This document shows positions 30,675 through 53,805 of a DNA stretch of 63,205 bases, one piece after another. The notes below the pieces were generated by a model. It did no database searches. It had not been told where the DNA came from and was given only the letters and a program-made list of their open reading frames with translations. Position numbers and translations under genes: made by a program. Source of the DNA: a virus; IMG/VR virus record IMGVR_UViG_3300025118_000012, positions 1-63,205 of that record. One strand, 5' to 3'. Position 1 is the stretch's first letter, and each line of letters opens with the position of its first letter.

Positions 30675-32909
30675 ATGAACCAAGTTTTAAATAGACCTAT
30701 GTTTCGTCAGACAGCACTTCGTAAAGGTCACTTAACACCTGTACGTGCAAATACAGGAGTTATGATAGGACAACCTTATGGTCCACCCGGTCCTTTCAAA
30801 CCACCCTCAACTCAAATAGCTCCTTGGTATCAAAGACTTAAAGCAGATTTTTTAAATTCTAGACAAGGAATTCAACAAGTATTAAAAGGCCATAAAGGAG
30901 CTAATCCTTTAGGATCAGGAAGAGGGCTTGCAGCCGCAACAGGTTATTTGGGTGTTGAGGATTTAGTAAGTAGATTTACAGGATCCCCTTATGGCAGGAG
31001 TATTTTTGAACAATATGGTGTGGAGCCCGGTTTAAAAAAAGTGGCACTAGATACAGGAATAGCAGCAGCATTATCTTTTAATCCTATAACAGGGCCAGTA
31101 GCAAGAGGTGTAGGACTAGGATGGACAGGAGCTAAATTAGGTAAAAAATATCTTTATGACCCAGCAAAAAATTGGTTGTCGGGAATGCCCACTGGAGATC
31201 TTGATACAAAATGGGGAATAGAAGAAGGCCAAAAGATGGTAGATCTAAGTGGAAAGGAACAACCTAAAACAGCAATCCAAATTAAAAAAGAAGTTGAAAA
31301 TATTGGGCCCAAGAGAAAACATAACAGAGTTGGTTTTGGTAATAAACTAACACAAACTGACAATGAATCAAAAGTTGTGGATGGAGCGGTAGATGTTAAT
31401 AAAGTTATAGATAACAACATAGCTTCTATGCTACCAGAAGGTGGAGGGGTAGATGCGTCAAAATCAACATATGGAAAACCTAAATCTAACTACCCTGAAG
31501 ATGAAGAGCTTATTGCAGTATCCGACAAAGAAAAAATAACTGATAAAAAGGCAAATCTGAATGTTGTAAAAAAAGCTAATGCAGTAAATAATGAATTAGA
31601 TAAACCGGGTAAAATAAAAGCAGGGGATGGCACAGAGGTTAATACTGAAGTAATTGACCTTGCAAGAAAATATAGAAAAGAATTAATGGCAGGACAAAAA
31701 TCTCAAGCTGGTTTAGTCTTTTTAGCAAACCTAGCTTCAGGTTTACTTTCAGGAACAACTGCAAAAGCTGGAGTAGGGGGAGCTTTAGAAGTATTAGGTA
31801 AAGCTTTAGGCCCTGCAGTTAACAACTATGCAACTATTAAATTAAAAGAAAACGAACTATCCAACAGTTTTATGTCAGACGCTTTAGAATTAGCAGGAGA
31901 TGAGATTGAAAGAGCAAATGAAATAATAGAATTTAAAATGCCAGAGTACCCAGATGGTGATCCAGGAGTTATTCAAATGTTTGACAGAAATAACCAAATT
32001 GTAAATATGCGTGGTATTAGATTAAAAGATGGTACTGTACAAGTAGCTATGCCTGGCATGAAAGATCAATTTGGTCATAACGTTTATCAAACAATGGTAA
32101 CAGGTTCGTTTAACAGATTTATGCCAAATAGTGAGTTAGATCCAAAAGCTATAGATACTCTTCTAGAATTAGACCAAAAATACAAAGCATACAAATACGG
32201 TGAAACATCTTACAATTTAGTTAAATCATTTGCAGATAAAGGTATCACGGGTGCAGGTCCAGTTGGTAGATTAAATTTAGTTAAAAGTAGATTAGGGGAA
32301 GCTATGTATGACTTAACAGGTATGAATATGTTTACAAACACTGATGATGCATTCCGAAAAGCTGATGAATACAAACAAATGTTAATAGATGATTATATGG
32401 AACAAAACGATGCAACTGAAAAAACAGCTAGAAAATGGGTTGAAAAAGAATTTGGTGAATTTAATTTAGGTAGTGGCGCACAAAATAAACTTACAAAGGC
32501 AATATCAGAATATACTGGAGAAGCTGACGCACAAAAATTATCTCAATTAGCTATTAACGAAACTGTCATGGTTTACGCATTAGCGAACTCATTAAAATCA
32601 AAAGACAGGTTAACTGCTAAAGATATTAAAATGGCTAAAGATCTAGTAAATATCTTCCCGTGGTTTAGAGGTCAAAAAGCAGTTATGAGAGATCTTAAAT
32701 CAGTTAATAATACAATTTTACAAGATATTAAATCTTTGGAAAATACTTATGTTATGGGTTTAATGGGAGAAACTTCTACTATTAACAAATACAGACGAAT
32801 ATATGGAATTGGCGTAGGTGCAGCAGATATGGCACCACAAGAAATACCTGGTTTTGATTGGGAAAATAAATCTGTTGAGGAAATGATGGCGGAAGGTTGG
32901 GGCTCATGA
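30675..32909 (+). CDS. Large internal virion or ejection protein
   Basis: The product has 744 residues. It includes an N-terminal basic region, a hydrophobic segment (DTGIAAALSFNPITGPVARGVGLG, residues about 118-142) and a second (SQAGLVFLANLASGLLSGTTAKAG, about 340-365), followed by a long helical charged C-terminal half. Such mixed soluble and membrane-seeking proteins are typical of podovirus ejection proteins. It overlaps the next large gene by 4 bases. No transglycosylase motif is recognised. Confidence 0.65.
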   Translation: MNQVLNRPMFRQTALRKGHLTPVRANTGVMIGQPYGPPGPFKPPSTQIAPWYQRLKADFLNSRQGIQQVLKGHKGANPLGSGRGLAAATGYLGVEDLVSRFTGSPYGRSIFEQYGVEPGLKKVALDTGIAAALSFNPITGPVARGVGLGWTGAKLGKKYLYDPAKNWLSGMPTGDLDTKWGIEEGQKMVDLSGKEQPKTAIQIKKEVENIGPKRKHNRVGFGNKLTQTDNESKVVDGAVDVNKVIDNNIASMLPEGGGVDASKSTYGKPKSNYPEDEELIAVSDKEKITDKKANLNVVKKANAVNNELDKPGKIKAGDGTEVNTEVIDLARKYRKELMAGQKSQAGLVFLANLASGLLSGTTAKAGVGGALEVLGKALGPAVNNYATIKLKENELSNSFMSDALELAGDEIERANEIIEFKMPEYPDGDPGVIQMFDRNNQIVNMRGIRLKDGTVQVAMPGMKDQFGHNVYQTMVTGSFNRFMPNSELDPKAIDTLLELDQKYKAYKYGETSYNLVKSFADKGITGAGPVGRLNLVKSRLGEAMYDLTGMNMFTNTDDAFRKADEYKQMLIDDYMEQNDATEKTARKWVEKEFGEFNLGSGAQNKLTKAISEYTGEADAQKLSQLAINETVMVYALANSLKSKDRLTAKDIKMAKDLVNIFPWFRGQKAVMRDLKSVNNTILQDIKSLENTYVMGLMGETSTINKYRRIYGIGVGAADMAPQEIPGFDWENKSVEEMMAEGWGS

Positions 32910-35900
32910 CATTAGAAGAATTACAAAAAAAATTAGATGATAAATCTCTTGACCCATCAAGATTAGATAGAAAACAAAGATCTATAATTGATGAATTAAT
33001 TAAAAGAGGAGAATTAAAAGGTCCTAATATAAAAGAATTACAAGCAGAAAGAAACGCAGCAGCTAGAGCAATAGCTAGAAAAGAAGAATTTCATGCAGAT
33101 CCAATAGCCGCAGCTTTAGAAGCTGAGGATAGTTTTTTTAAAGGTAGACCAACTGCAGAACTTGCAGGTGACTTATCTGGTTCAATTGCACCTTACGTAG
33201 CTATGAGAAAAAAAATATTTGGTGCTGCTAAGAACGGTACTCTTTGGCAAAAAGGACCAGGAAAATTTTTACAATCAGCTACAAGAGTTGCTGATAAACT
33301 TCCTGGAAAATGGGGAAAAATAATAGGTGGTGCATTAAAATTAGTTGCAAGAACTGCAGACGTACCTGCTAAAGTTTGGGCTAGTCCTCTTGGTAAAGCA
33401 GAAATTTATTCTGTATTAGGTGGTTCTGCAGGAGCAGGAGCTGGTTCAATTACATATGATATGCTTAACGAGCAAGCAGGAGTAACAATTGCAAATTCAA
33501 TTACAGATGCATTTAGAGATATGCCTCAAAAAGAAATAGATCAAGACATTTTAAAAAATGCTTTTGAAGCTACAAAATATGCAGCAATGTGGAATGCAGG
33601 TGCAGCGGCATTAACCCCTTTTATATTAGGACCACTAGGTAAAGGAGTAGGAAAATTATTTGGAACTAAAGGTGAAAAAGCTGTGAGATTATCTGAGTAT
33701 GCAAAAGAAAAAGGTTTACCATTACCACTTATGACAGGTATTAAAGATGGTGTTCTTACAAACTTAGGTACGGGATATTTTAAAACGGTGGGTGTCTTTC
33801 CTTTTGTGTCTGGAATAGGAAGAAAATCTTTACAAGGAGCTGAACAAGAAGCAAGTAAACAATATTTAGAAGGATTGGTAAAGTTTGCACCTTTAATGAA
33901 AACAGCAGCTCTTTCATCTTCTATCTATAACCAAGCCGCAAAAACTTTTGCAGATCACGTAGCCGTTATTGGTTCTAAATATCAAGCTTTTGAAAGATTT
34001 GCAGAAGCAGCAGGTAATCCAAGAGTAATAGGTTTAGATAAAACATCTAAAGCCGCAAAAGAAATGGTTGAAAACTACAGACAAATGTTTCCTGATATTC
34101 AATCTGCATTAGATACGCAAAGACGACTTGGACGTTCTATTGGTGACTTAGATATCAAAGCAATTGAAAAACATCTTACAGATGCAGGAGATCCTTTAAA
34201 TTTATTTATAAAATCCATTGTTGCTGTTGGAGAGAATGGTAAAATTACTCCTAAAGAATATGGGGGTATTATGAAAATGTTAAATAGAGCTATTGAAGGC
34301 TCTAACTTACAAATTCCAAATAAAACGGTTTGGGCATTAAGAGAAGCTTTAGAAGTAGATTTAAATTCTTTTGGAGCAAAGCTTACAAAAGATAACTTTT
34401 TAAAAGATGATGTTATAAAAGAAGGCTACGAACAAATGGTTAAACAAAGTGGTAAAGAATTTGCTGATGCTGATATGGCTTATAAAATTGGTCAAGGTAC
34501 ACAATTATATAGTAAATTAAAAGAAGCAAATTCTGCATTCTCAAGTATTATGGGATTTTACACAAAACAAACTTTACCTTCTCATTTTAAAAGATTTGAT
34601 ACTACTTTATTTACTGGAAGAGGTGTTAATGGAATTTTAGGTAAAGAAAGTATCCCTAGAGATCAAATGTTTAAGTCTATGGCTAGGGATGTTTTTGCGT
34701 CTAACTCAGAAGATGCAATTTTTCAATTTAAAAGAATTATAGGAGCTGAAGGTCCTAACGCAACAAAAAATGGTAAGCAATTATTTGAGGCAGCTAAAGC
34801 AAGATATATGTTTAATGCTTTTTTTAGTGCTTTTGATAGTGCAGGAAGTCCACAAGCTAAATCTATATTTAATGATGTAGCAATGGACGCATCAGTTAAA
34901 TCAGGTAATAAATATATGGCAGACGCAATGGAAGAATTTGGGGGAGCTGCTCAACAACGTTATAGAAATTTTTCAATTGAGGATGTTAGACTTAATAATG
35001 GTATTTATGATGTATCAAAAATAAGATTTGGTGTAGATGATATTGCTGATTTTAATATAAATAAATTTATGGATAATCTTGGAATTGGTAAAGCAACAGA
35101 AGATTTAGGAAGAGACAAGATGGCTGCAATTATAGGAAAAGGAAAACCTTTAGATGATTTTTATAAATTTACCGACTACATGAAAGCTATATCAGATATT
35201 GCAATATCAGATACATCTACATTCCTTCAAAGAAGATTTACACTTTCTGGAGGTAAAGGTGTTTTAACTGGTGTTGTAATTGGAGGGGGTATGGGTGCGG
35301 TTAATCCTCTTGCTCCATTAGTATTTTTAATGTTAGCGAGAAAAGCAGGAAGCATGTTAACGGATCCTGTTGCTTTAAGATATTTAAATGATGCACTTAG
35401 TGTTGATGAACAATTAAAAATTTTAAAAGGTCAAAAAATTAGAGGTCAAACTTATGGAAGAGGAGCAGTTCCAAAATGGACAGCTGCTGGATTAACTCAA
35501 AAAAGAGAAGCGTTTGCAAGATTGTGGAATTATATGGCTGATGAAGATAAAGATATGCCTAGAATTAATCCTAAAATGATTGACCCAATTAAAATACAAG
35601 AATTTTTACTTAGTCAACCTTTTGAAAGTCCTAAACCAAGATACGATGATAACACTTTACCTAAAAAAACAATTGAATCTATGTTTTCAGAAGATTTTAC
35701 AGGTAGCTCAGGAAATGTAGTAAAGGATAATCAAATAGTTGACTACGTTCGATCAACTGTAGGACATGAAATTGAATCGGATGTTGATCAAGAATCAAGA
35801 GAAGTGGAAGCTGAAAGAGCGAGTATTACAGAAGGTATGGAATTAGAAAATCCTGTACAAAGTCCACCGAACACCGGACAAGCTGGACAAGCTGGACAAC

Positions 35901-35986
35901 AAGTAAACGCACAACAGTTCCAAGCACTATTCCCTAACGATCCAACAGGTGCTGCAATAGCACAAAGAGCAACTAGACGTGCCTAA
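32906..35986 (+). CDS. Very large internal virion or ejection protein
   Basis: The product has 1026 residues from ATG 32906, which overlaps the preceding stop as ATGA. It is mostly helical, with hydrophobic stretches near residues 170-185 (SVLGGSAGAGAGSITYD) and about 780-815 (GGKGVLTGVVIGGGMGAVNPLAPLVFLMLA). The C-terminus has a GQAGQAGQQ low-complexity run. Size, position and glycine-rich membrane-active segments fit an ejected core protein that helps DNA cross the envelope. No lytic enzyme motif is apparent. Confidence 0.68.
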   Translation: MTLEELQKKLDDKSLDPSRLDRKQRSIIDELIKRGELKGPNIKELQAERNAAARAIARKEEFHADPIAAALEAEDSFFKGRPTAELAGDLSGSIAPYVAMRKKIFGAAKNGTLWQKGPGKFLQSATRVADKLPGKWGKIIGGALKLVARTADVPAKVWASPLGKAEIYSVLGGSAGAGAGSITYDMLNEQAGVTIANSITDAFRDMPQKEIDQDILKNAFEATKYAAMWNAGAAALTPFILGPLGKGVGKLFGTKGEKAVRLSEYAKEKGLPLPLMTGIKDGVLTNLGTGYFKTVGVFPFVSGIGRKSLQGAEQEASKQYLEGLVKFAPLMKTAALSSSIYNQAAKTFADHVAVIGSKYQAFERFAEAAGNPRVIGLDKTSKAAKEMVENYRQMFPDIQSALDTQRRLGRSIGDLDIKAIEKHLTDAGDPLNLFIKSIVAVGENGKITPKEYGGIMKMLNRAIEGSNLQIPNKTVWALREALEVDLNSFGAKLTKDNFLKDDVIKEGYEQMVKQSGKEFADADMAYKIGQGTQLYSKLKEANSAFSSIMGFYTKQTLPSHFKRFDTTLFTGRGVNGILGKESIPRDQMFKSMARDVFASNSEDAIFQFKRIIGAEGPNATKNGKQLFEAAKARYMFNAFFSAFDSAGSPQAKSIFNDVAMDASVKSGNKYMADAMEEFGGAAQQRYRNFSIEDVRLNNGIYDVSKIRFGVDDIADFNINKFMDNLGIGKATEDLGRDKMAAIIGKGKPLDDFYKFTDYMKAISDIAISDTSTFLQRRFTLSGGKGVLTGVVIGGGMGAVNPLAPLVFLMLARKAGSMLTDPVALRYLNDALSVDEQLKILKGQKIRGQTYGRGAVPKWTAAGLTQKREAFARLWNYMADEDKDMPRINPKMIDPIKIQEFLLSQPFESPKPRYDDNTLPKKTIESMFSEDFTGSSGNVVKDNQIVDYVRSTVGHEIESDVDQESREVEAERASITEGMELENPVQSPPNTGQAGQAGQQVNAQQFQALFPNDPTGAAIAQRATRRA

Positions 35987-49341: not shown

Positions 49342-49557
49342 ATGGATATCACTAAATGGAAATCTTGTGCGGTTGATATTGAATCATACATTCTAATAAG
49401 AGCGATGGGAAAGGCAGGTTTTAGAAGACCTGGAAGTATGATCGCTAAATTAGTTGATGAAGAAGTAAAGAAGATAGCTAAAAAAGAGGGTAAGAGTTAT
49501 CAATCAATGAAAGAGAATTTGCTATCTCAAGGTAAGAAGCTCTTGAATGGTAAGTAG
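49342..49557 (+). CDS. Small basic protein, possible ribbon-helix-helix
   Basis: The product has 71 residues. The central SYILIRAMGKAGFRRPGSMIAKLVDEEVKKIAKKEG could be a strand followed by two helices, as in Arc/CopG regulators, but the match is weak. It ends the ParB-like gene's unit and is followed by a strong terminator. A DNA-binding regulator is possible. Confidence 0.5.
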   Translation: MDITKWKSCAVDIESYILIRAMGKAGFRRPGSMIAKLVDEEVKKIAKKEGKSYQSMKENLLSQGKKLLNGK

Positions 49558-50064: not shown

Positions 50065-50271
50065 TTGGCTATGCTGATGTATTTATTTGATAAAACTTAT
50101 ATAAGAGCCTCAATTAATTTTTGCAAAACTTTGGATGGTCCCGGTCGTGTGGGCTTTATCTCTGAAGTTCTTGAAGATTATTATATTAGCGTAGAAAAGA
50201 AATCTCCAGCACTTGTTCAAAGGAGGTTTCGTGAGTTATACGCCGAACTTATTAAAAATTTTGGGCACTAG
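50065..50271 (+). CDS. Small protein
   Basis: The product has up to 68 residues. The start is uncertain: TTG 50065, ATG 50071 and ATG 50077 are in frame, and no clear ribosome site is present. It is helical with basic and aromatic residues (FRELYAELIKNF). It overlaps the next gene. The function is unknown. Confidence 0.45.
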   Translation: MAMLMYLFDKTYIRASINFCKTLDGPGRVGFISEVLEDYYISVEKKSPALVQRRFRELYAELIKNFGH

Positions 50272-50641
50272 CATGTCTGCTCAAATTTTAAAAGAAGATA
50301 AATCACCTGAACAGAAATTATTTCAGGCTATAGTCCTCCAGGCGTTTGAAGATGTTTTGACGACTCATGGGAATAAGCAAGATTCTTATCTTAAAAAAGA
50401 TGCTCATGATTGGTTTTTAAATAAAAATAATCGCTTTAATGATATTTGTTGGTATGCAGGTTTTGATCCAGAAATTATAAATGAAAAATATAAAAAATTA
50501 TTAGCTGAAGGTAAAATTAAATTTACTCGACTCCAGGAGGCGTGGATAGAATATAGAAATTTATATAAAAATTATAGAGCTGCTAAAACTTCTGTTGAGA
50601 GAAGAAACATTATGATTAAAATTTGTAGAATAAAAAAATAG
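50231..50641 (+). CDS. Conserved helical phage protein
   Basis: The product has 136 residues from GTG 50231, chosen for AAAGGAGG at 50219-50226. ATG 50273 is an alternative. The sequence (EQKLFQAIVLQAFEDVLTTHGNKQDSYLKKDAHDWFLN, then FNDICWYAGFDPEIINEKYKKL) resembles a small conserved family of T4-type and other marine phages. The role is unknown. The C-terminus is strongly basic, so nucleic acid binding is possible. Confidence 0.6.
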   Translation: MSYTPNLLKILGTSMSAQILKEDKSPEQKLFQAIVLQAFEDVLTTHGNKQDSYLKKDAHDWFLNKNNRFNDICWYAGFDPEIINEKYKKLLAEGKIKFTRLQEAWIEYRNLYKNYRAAKTSVERRNIMIKICRIKK

Positions 50642-50922: not shown

Positions 50923-50990
50923 TTCCGATACTTTTAAGTAAGTGCTAATTAACACATAATAAGTATATCACAACACCGGATACCGGACAA

Positions 50991-51518
50991 TTAATTTGTA
51001 TAGTTGATGTTTAGGACTATCCTACATTTACTGTCTGTGGTATTTGTGCCACAATGTTTCATCTGAGAGTTGAAGGTAATTAATCTATTGGCTTTTGAGT
51101 ATATTTTTGTGCCATCTTCAAATTTTGTATACCCATTATTGGTATTTATATAAAAAGCTGAGGTTTTGCAGTCATCTGGGACATCAACATGTAGATCTGA
51201 TTCATGTAATTTAGCTGAACCAGTAGTCATATTAAGCTTTAATCTATATAATAGTTTGACATTTAATTTTTGCAAAATTGGCTTAACAATATCAAAATAT
51301 CTAGACGCTATTTCTTTATCATCGTAGGTTTTGAATACATGTGTAAATTGGAATGATTCTAAAATAGGATCATCCCATTTGGGATCACCATCTTGATTGT
51401 AATTTATATATTTGTTAAAAAACCACGGAAAATGAGCACCTTCTAGGTCTTCAACCACCACATCAAAGATTCTTTTGTCTAAAAAATTGTCCTCCTGAGT
51501 GTATCCAAGTATTTCCAT
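50991..51518 (-). CDS. 2OG-Fe(II) oxygenase, NNGYT subfamily copy 2
   Basis: The product has 175 residues. It shares with the 5250 and 57952 products HFPWFF near the start, FQFTHVF, the iron motif HVD in SDLHVDVPDD, AFYINTNNGYTKFEDGTKI, and FNSQMKHCGTNTTD with CRIVLNINY. It stands alone on the minus strand, upstream of the iteron region, which is unlike the other two. Its leader (51519-51540) touches the repeat array, so it could be regulated from there. Confidence 0.8.
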   Translation of the reverse strand: MEILGYTQEDNFLDKRIFDVVVEDLEGAHFPWFFNKYINYNQDGDPKWDDPILESFQFTHVFKTYDDKEIASRYFDIVKPILQKLNVKLLYRLKLNMTTGSAKLHESDLHVDVPDDCKTSAFYINTNNGYTKFEDGTKIYSKANRLITFNSQMKHCGTNTTDSKCRIVLNINYTN

Positions 51519-51542
51519 AAATTTTACTATATAGATATTCTA

Positions 51543-51686
51543 GACACCTGACTAATAAAAAGTACCCCAGGGGGTCAAACAGGTGTCCCTGGTGTCCCTG
51601 ATACACTATTAATCAATAATATCAATGCTTTTAATCAATTTTAATGGTGTCCCTGTGGTGTCCCCGTGGTGTCCCTAGGGACACCA
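51543..51686. repeat. GGTGTCCC repeat array ending in a 20-bp palindrome
   Basis: Five direct copies of GGTGTCCCT or GGTGTCCCC start at 51582, 51591, 51646, 51657 and 51668. The last three are 11 bases apart, one helical turn. The last copy and the inverted copy at 51677 form the perfect palindrome TGGTGTCCCTAGGGACACCA (51667-51686). A partial inverted copy (GACACCTG) lies at 51543. The 46 bases between the two sets are AT-rich and contain TTAATCAAT twice. The layout is that of iterons with an unwinding element, or a multi-site operator, in a 242-base gap between divergent genes. Confidence 0.8.
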
Positions 51687-51760
51687 CTCTTGCGGGAACG
51701 CAATCAAAACAATTTCAGGTAGTTACTTTGTGATGAAATAATCTATATAATAAAAAAACT

Positions 51761-52427: not shown

Positions 52428-52534
52428 TGTTTTGGGTTTGGCATTTGGTGGCAATTACATCTATAATATCAATTTCATTCATAATAGGATACAGCTATGG
52501 GTCTAAAGAAAAAAGAATTAAGAACAGTAGATGA
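52427..52534 (+). CDS. Tiny single-span membrane protein overlapping terS
   Basis: The product has 35 residues. It starts at the TAATG junction with the preceding gene, holds one membrane span (VWHLVAITSIISISFIIGYSYG) and ends in a basic tail (KEKRIKNSR). The tail lies inside the small terminase gene in another frame. The junction and composition suggest that it is real. Confidence 0.45.
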   Translation: MFWVWHLVAITSIISISFIIGYSYGSKEKRIKNSR

Positions 52535-53021
52535 TTTAACTCCCAAACAAAGAATGTTTGTGGAAATTTACGTAAAAGACTGGGGAAGCATTACTCAAGC
52601 GGAAGCTTTAAAACGCGCTGGATATGTTTGTAAAAATGAGAATGACTATAGTGCAATCGCTTCTAGATTATTATCCAGAAGATTAAATCCACACGTTGCA
52701 AAATATTTTGATAAACGATTTGAAAAAGAAATAAAAATGTATGAGGGAGATAACCTCAGACGGTTTAAACGATTTGAAAGACTTGCTGATAAAGCTGAGA
52801 ATAAGGAGCAATTTGCTGCTGCTATTAATGCTGAATATAGATCAGGTCAATTAGCGGGTTCTTTTATTGATAGAAAAGAAGTTAGAGTAACCGGACTGGA
52901 GGGTATGTCACGTGAAGAACTTGAAAACAAGTTACAAGAGCTATCGCAGAAGATCGATGGGCATAATGCCAAAACGATCCAAGCTGAGCCCACAGACATT
53001 AAAGAAATTAAAAACAGTTAG
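52497..53021 (+). CDS. Terminase small subunit
   Basis: The product has 174 residues. The N-terminal helix-turn-helix region (LTPKQRMFVEIYVKDWGSITQAEALKRAGY, about residues 15-44) is the terminase_2-type signature. A helical oligomerisation middle and a charged C-terminal tail (GMSREELENKLQELSQKIDG) follow. It recognises packaging DNA and regulates the large subunit. It lies 5.4 kb upstream of the large subunit gene (58436), unusually far for this pair, with the GC-rich island between them. Confidence 0.83.
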   Translation: MGLKKKELRTVDDLTPKQRMFVEIYVKDWGSITQAEALKRAGYVCKNENDYSAIASRLLSRRLNPHVAKYFDKRFEKEIKMYEGDNLRRFKRFERLADKAENKEQFAAAINAEYRSGQLAGSFIDRKEVRVTGLEGMSREELENKLQELSQKIDGHNAKTIQAEPTDIKEIKNS

Positions 53022-53404: not shown

Positions 53405-53805
53405 TGCCACGTAGTATAAACCAAGAGAGTTTATTGTGGCAAAGAACTAAAAAAGGACTGACTGATTGTTACTTAACCCGCATAGAAACTAGCACAATCA
53501 ATGGTGTACCTGATATTCATGGAGTACATAAACAAGGTGTTTTTTGGATAGAATTAAAATCAGATCAACTCAATTATCCCAAACTAAATAAGTGGCAGAT
53601 AGTATGGATAAATAAATATATTAAAGCTGGTGGTAAAGTATTTATCTTGAAAGAGACCCTCTCGAAGAGGTCTCTTAGACTGTACAGACCGGTGTCCCGG
53701 TTCACCGAACCTCGGGAACTGAAACCTCGGTTTGAGTTCTCGGTTCCTTTTAAATGGCCGGCGATCCAGGAAGCACTGGTGAGCTCCCTCCAGGAGGCAG
53801 CGTGA
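53404..53805 (+). CDS. VRR-NUC-like nuclease with a GC-rich tail
   Basis: The product has 133 residues. The nuclease pattern is SINQESLLWQRTK (first helix), NGVPDIHGVHKQGVFWIELKSDQ (G-x-PD...E-x-K) and NKWQIVWINKYIKAGGKVFIL. VRR-NUC enzymes cut branched DNA and are often near phage terminases. After residue 84 the codons switch from AT-rich to GC-rich and a near-perfect inverted repeat (53652-53674, AGAGACC...GGTCTCT) lies in the frame. The last about 50 residues therefore look like material added at the edge of the GC-rich island. Confidence 0.72.
   Translation: MPRSINQESLLWQRTKKGLTDCYLTRIETSTINGVPDIHGVHKQGVFWIELKSDQLNYPKLNKWQIVWINKYIKAGGKVFILKETLSKRSLRLYRPVSRFTEPRELKPRFEFSVPFKWPAIQEALVSSLQEAA
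53661..53671 (+). repeat. Left flanking repeat of the GC-rich island
   Basis: CTCGAAGAGGT here is identical to 57171-57181. The two copies flank the 3.5-kb GC-richer, gene-poor island. Both lie inside small hairpins. They may be insertion-site duplications or recombination joints, though an 11-base match could also reflect a shared hairpin type. Confidence 0.45.

Follow-up and report, generated by a model that had tools for sequence, protein, structure and literature searches.

What does a regular array of short repeats do upstream of the terminase small subunit gene of an ocean virus? The array lies in a 63,205-nucleotide stretch of viral DNA (IMG/VR record IMGVR_UViG_3300025118_000012; hereafter the window), ahead of terS (52497–53021, + strand; Pfam Terminase_2). 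An original prediction had proposed that it serves either as an initiator-bound origin of replication or as a cooperative operator for the divergent genes 50991 and 51761 and the terS unit. The large terminases of the window and of Pelagibacter phage HTVC023P share 69% identity, which identifies the window as an HTVC023P-type pelagiphage; the array belongs to a very abundant group of ocean viruses. A description of this element was not found in the literature that we searched.

Architecture and conservation of the array

In the window, five direct copies of the 8-bp word GGTGTCCC start at positions 51582, 51591, 51646, 51657 and 51668 (+ strand) and are followed by an inverted sixth copy (51678–51685, − strand). 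The word occurs only once more in the 63 kb, at 53691, and the total of seven copies, against 0.5 expected, was reached by no shuffle. Coordinates confirm the five direct copies that had been predicted, with the last three at an 11-base period: copies 1 and 2 (51582–51598) are 9 bp apart, start to start, and copies 3 to 5 (51646–51675) follow each other at exactly 11 bp. The sixth copy completes a palindrome with arms GTGGTGTCCCT, which is perfect, as predicted, but spans 22 bp (51666–51687) and not 20. Likewise, the segment between copies 2 and 3 (51599–51645) is AT-rich and contains TTAATCAAT twice, as had been noted, but measures 47 nt instead of 46; its GC content is approximately 22%, versus 35% for the window. 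The left limit originally placed at 51543 did not hold, as the half-site GACACCTG found there is not kept in relatives.

A search for the array in related phages, suggested in the original prediction, was strongly positive. Relatives were gathered from IMG/VR through TerS similarity and pattern scans, and yielded at least 130 distinct arrays from assembled contigs, many of them short. The common layout consists of two copies of GGTGTNNC 9 bp apart, an AT-rich gap whose length of 47 nt is near-constant, three copies at an 11-bp period (a spacing that was built into the search pattern) and one inverted copy. Copies 1 and 2 stand at −64 and −55 from copy 3 in 128 of the 132 distinct arrays, and the inverted copy at +33 or +32 in 131 of them. 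In most relatives this last copy lies one base further on than in the window, which makes the palindrome imperfect; the conserved feature is an inverted copy, rather than perfect symmetry. Each of 18 long contigs carries a single array of this kind. In 116 loci, wherever the contig extends far enough, terS follows the array on the same strand at a distance of 112 to 1685 bp, irrespective of the small genes on either side. Conservation of the array far exceeds that of the sequence around it. The phage collection gave no DNA match to this region, and in a scan of the genome collection SAR11 was absent among the 80 matches listed, which are apparently chance arrays.

The gap sequence itself diverges among relatives, with the exception of a central TAT(C/T)CAA....TTTTA. 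The gap also contains a possible IHF-type site, TATCAATGCTTTT (51620–51632, + strand), which agrees with the consensus WATCAANNNNTTR at 8 of 9 positions. In 30 of 132 relatives the match at this place is complete (9/9), compared to 1.4 in mononucleotide shuffles, a difference that is only suggestive since the arrays are related by descent and the shuffles preserve single-base composition.

Outward-facing −10 elements and neighbouring genes

Each side of the array carries a −10 element (ATCTATATA(A/G)TA) that points outward, with no conserved −35. Both elements are among the most conserved bases of the region, and the right one is almost invariant. The leftward element of the window, TATCTATATAGTA (51525–51537, − strand), lies 48 bp from copy 1, and the distance is 47–48 bp in 132 of 140 arrays. 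The rightward one, AATCTATATAATA (51740–51752, + strand), is 58 bp from the inverted copy; this gap is 58 bp in 100 of 146 loci and 56–59 bp in 128, most of the others having 66–67, 71–72 or 81 bp, of which the 71–72 bp class (10/146) is out of phase. Left and right distances usually differ by one helical turn. From their sequence we infer that these elements are promoters. Conservation of a −10 in the absence of a conserved −35 is as expected of activator-dependent promoters, and activators of class I, CRP for example, commonly act from such distances. The first ATG follows the rightward element after 17 nt in the window and after 11–16 nt in nearly all relatives, implying that the message to the terS operon would be leaderless or near-leaderless.

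On the left, any ATG is found at 9–18 nt in only 21 of 137 cases, 7 of which open an ORF of at least 40 codons. The leftward element is thus kept though few loci have a gene behind it; in the window that gene is 50991. Of 116 loci, about 7 contain a homologue of 50991 (about 4 of them in the same position), while the basic product of 51761, which had been proposed as the binder, has homologues in less than half. The array is therefore tied to neither, and the two genes are dispensable neighbours. A ParB-like protein, also suggested earlier as a possible binder, fares no better, as its gene is missing in several loci whose upstream sequence is long enough to show it.

The PHROG match of gene 50991 carries the label DNA endonuclease V, though the wider family resembles small 2OG-Fe(II)-type proteins, and the gene is one of three related ones in the same phage (5232–5768, 50991–51518 and 57946–58443); small 2OG-Fe(II)-type proteins are said to be expanded in the HTVC023P-type group. 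The gene also contains a second perfect TAATCTATATAATA (51240–51253), identical to the rightward element at 51739–51752. Beyond the leftward −10, on its left, many relatives carry further short repeats of the TTGTCCG/CCGGACA type (e.g. CACCGGATACCGGACAA), as seen at 50970–50992 of the window and in the left flanks of loci L003 to L093.

Two other genes of the region encode conserved proteins. The product of g50213 (50213–50641, + strand) is all-helical, and its gene precedes the array in nearly every locus that extends far enough; solely by this position it is a candidate late activator. Its ortholog in HTVC023P is gp19 (39%). Comparison to PDB, Pfam and PHROGs gave no convincing match, and fold searches produced only a weak one; a similarity to Phage_Nu1 noted for one member (E = 0.015) is too weak to be used. 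The small conserved product of g49342 (49342–49557, + strand), for which no Pfam match was found, displays by eye a ribbon-helix-helix-like pattern, and is a candidate binder.

Related arrays in other phages

In HTVC023P, the strongest short-word array of the 25 kb examined sits just before terS. Its word, CTAGGAAA, occurs at relative positions 0, 8, 52, 63 and 84, and an inverted half stands near 73; a TTATAAC −10 follows 80 bp on, the ATG of terS is 14 nt after it, and a mirror TTATAAC lies to the left. The tandem pair, the step of 44 bp, the 11-bp spacing, the inverted half and the mirror −10 elements have their counterparts in the window, whereas the word differs and the g50213 ortholog is separated from the array by a further gene, gp20. 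The same layout with another word indicates that the control grammar survives complete replacement of the word. In HTVC027P and 023Pt_psg01, which have terS on the opposite strand, the regions scanned near this gene showed no similar array.

Approximately 16 unrelated viral contigs carry 11-bp GGTGTNNC arrays, several of them with a terminase gene within about 2 kb: terS in L121, L146, L164 and L182 (in L146 by similarity to the TerS of the window) and terL in L126 and L203. As three of these contigs belong to one pelagiphage group, we treat the association, obtained with a search word fixed beforehand, as a lead. The variable bases in these six arrays are CG, TG, AG and others, and the terminase gene is sometimes not transcribed from the array side. 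L121, L146 and L182, which are more distant pelagiphages, have a GGTGTCGC array near terS, but the gene is not read in the direction away from the array.

Concerted switching of two bases

The two variable bases of GGTGTNNC are CC (GGTGTCCC) or AT (GGTGTATC), depending on the phage, and are the same in all six copies of 131 out of 146 arrays; of the remaining 15, 10 differ in the inverted copy only and 5 have the first pair displaced. The trees of TerS, g50213 and g49775 each show only three changes of type, suggesting that CC and AT have interchanged at least three times. L202 (CC) and L181 (AT) have identical gap sequences and different copies. Two switches that are separate from each other, L136/L147/L186 and L115/L105, left the adjoining genes AT-like.

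We looked for a protein that changes in step with the two bases. The TerS HTH is identical across motif types (L136 and L147 versus L170, L166 and L173), and neither the probable recognition helix of g50213 nor the probable reading strand of g49342 changes with the switch. Perfect separation of CC and AT types was not found in columns of g50213, g49775, ParB, g53102, the endonuclease, TerL or PolA, with the sole exception of a hypervariable PolA position (n = 24). When the whole contigs L136, L147 and L115 were compared, only homologues of 30675–32909 and 32897–35986 leaned to the CC type, and for this lean (in L136) AT-type genomes of sufficient length are too few to judge, the AT-type phages of the sample being without near-complete genomes. 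These two genes are much more divergent between relatives than the genes next to them.

None of the DNA-binding proteins of the neighbourhood thus changes in step with the switch, and the reader of the two bases was not found among them; a host gene or a more remote phage gene may encode it. We tentatively suggest, without ranking it as probable, that a trans-acting factor with two discrete specificities, for GGTGTCCC or for GGTGTATC, is encoded by the host or outside the terS neighbourhood, and that all six copies change at once, in the manner of an address code. Such a code would allow or block exchange of the late module between co-infecting pelagiphages, or follow host type. The array offers a defined 230-bp target, with natural variants that differ at 12 bases, for pull-down of the factor.

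Possible roles of the array

The genome map appears to be circular or permuted: contig ends of near-complete relatives fall at varied positions, the ends of the window are joined inside other contigs, and one relative has a 55-bp end overlap that indicates a circle, though direct terminal repeats would look alike. Circularised genomes have been reported (PMC9599517). Six contigs (L045, L122, L166, L177, L189 and L201) end within the array at differing bases, probably owing to an island common to several strains.

The main rival of an operator is a pac site, on which TerS rings would assemble to direct the first cut, with headful packaging to follow, either alone or together with promoter control; we regard this role as possible, if on the whole improbable. 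It would agree with the single array per genome, always close to terS, with the circular or permuted map, with the terminase genes that several other viral contigs have close to 11-bp GGTGTNNC arrays and with the Terminase_2 assignment of TerS, a family to which the SPP1 and SF6 TerS proteins also belong. The SPP1 pac consists of sets of direct repeats that span promoters and the start of terS (gene 1), so that a pac role could coexist with promoter control, and the window resembles it in having repeats that overlap the promoter region just before an adjoining Terminase_2 terS, on a map that may likewise be circularly permuted; SPP1/SF6 pac, however, has three kinds of repeat, less regular, and a known cut site, versus a single word here (PMC4737164). 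A pac site would leave the mirror −10 elements at set distances unexplained, a cut near the array is not evident, and the TerS HTH does not follow the motif switches. The latter point would not in itself exclude pac, since the DNA-binding domain of SF6 TerS is nearly non-specific (PMC4737164).

Other roles are harder to reconcile with the locus. The six repeats, AT-rich gap, single copy per genome and flanking promoters could be those of an origin of replication, with iterons and an unwinding element, but the inflection in GC skew that the original prediction proposed to look for is absent, the skew being positive through the array region of the window. In addition, no initiator gene adjoins, the closest large replication gene is PolA at a distance of 5 kb, the position of the array is fixed to terS instead, and 8-bp words at an 11-bp period are shorter than usual iterons; we therefore consider an origin unlikely. 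A cos site cut at the palindrome is very improbable. Repeats and palindrome beside terS do recall lambda cosN/cosB, in which cosB has the order R3-IHF-R2-R1, and the array shares with cosB its two groups of repeats flanking a (here possible) IHF site; L045 moreover starts at the palindrome centre. Yet the array is crossed without a break in more than 130 contigs, the ends of near-complete contigs are scattered over the map, one such contig appears to close into a circle, the symmetry of the palindrome is not conserved, and word, spacing and flanking promoters are unlike those of cosB. Clustering of contig ends near the array was considered as a sign of cos and rejected, since the ends are not at one base and a strain-shared island would give the same picture. 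Least credible is an RNA element, in which palindrome and repeats would form hairpins in a transcript: the region folds better than shuffles (z = −3.1), but it lies upstream of both −10 elements and thus outside their transcripts, no T-run follows the hairpin and Rfam has no match to the array.

Fixed geometry, an inverted end copy, phase-matched mirror −10 elements, activator-type promoters and a location at the early-late boundary are best fitted by a late-transcription operator. To a cooperative activator site that controls the late terS promoter and its mirror promoter we give an even chance of being the correct reading. Several copies of a sequence-specific protein, for which the products of g50213 and g49342 are candidates, would bind the six GGTGTNNC copies on one helix face and, perhaps with the gap bent by an IHF-like protein, form a compact complex that recruits host RNA polymerase to two divergent extended −10 promoters lacking a −35. 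The rightward promoter would yield a near-leaderless late operon transcript with small basic genes and terS, then terL, portal and capsid; the leftward one would drive a captured gene where present (50991 in the window), and could otherwise produce RNA antisense to the upstream g50213. The near-fixed spacing, the concerted change of the two bases and the layout retained in HTVC023P also favour this reading. Points that speak against it are the right gaps of 71–72 bp, the probable DNA-contacting residues of g50213 and g49342, which stay the same at the switch, the lack of a clear fold match for g50213 and the orientation of terS in L121, L146 and L182. The cooperative operator of the original prediction thus stands in outline, with mirror −10 elements at set distances and terS always downstream, and loses the partners that it had named.

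Comparison with known late promoters

An activator site of this kind would have close parallels in Gram-positive phages. TP901-1 Alt and phage phi13 Ltr use four direct repeats placed immediately ahead of the late promoter that precedes terS, and the regulator gene of such systems, of about 130 aa, lies just upstream (PMC13123087). The window, like Alt, Ltr and RinA (phi11), has direct repeats directly upstream of what would be, as judged from its −10 element, a sigma70-type promoter opening the terS-late operon. It is unlike them in its six copies, arranged as two groups plus an inverted one, in its mirror promoters and near-leaderless start, and in its alphaproteobacterial host; g50213 has no detectable similarity to known families. 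A second parallel comes from an alphaproteobacterium, the C. crescentus GTA, in which a far-upstream activator and IHF act on a sigma70 promoter (PMC11150451). Both would be alphaproteobacterial late promoters with an upstream activator site and IHF, all three of which are putative in the window; the Caulobacter GTA has one activator element (GafY) with IHF between activator and promoter, while in the window the possible IHF site lies inside the array.
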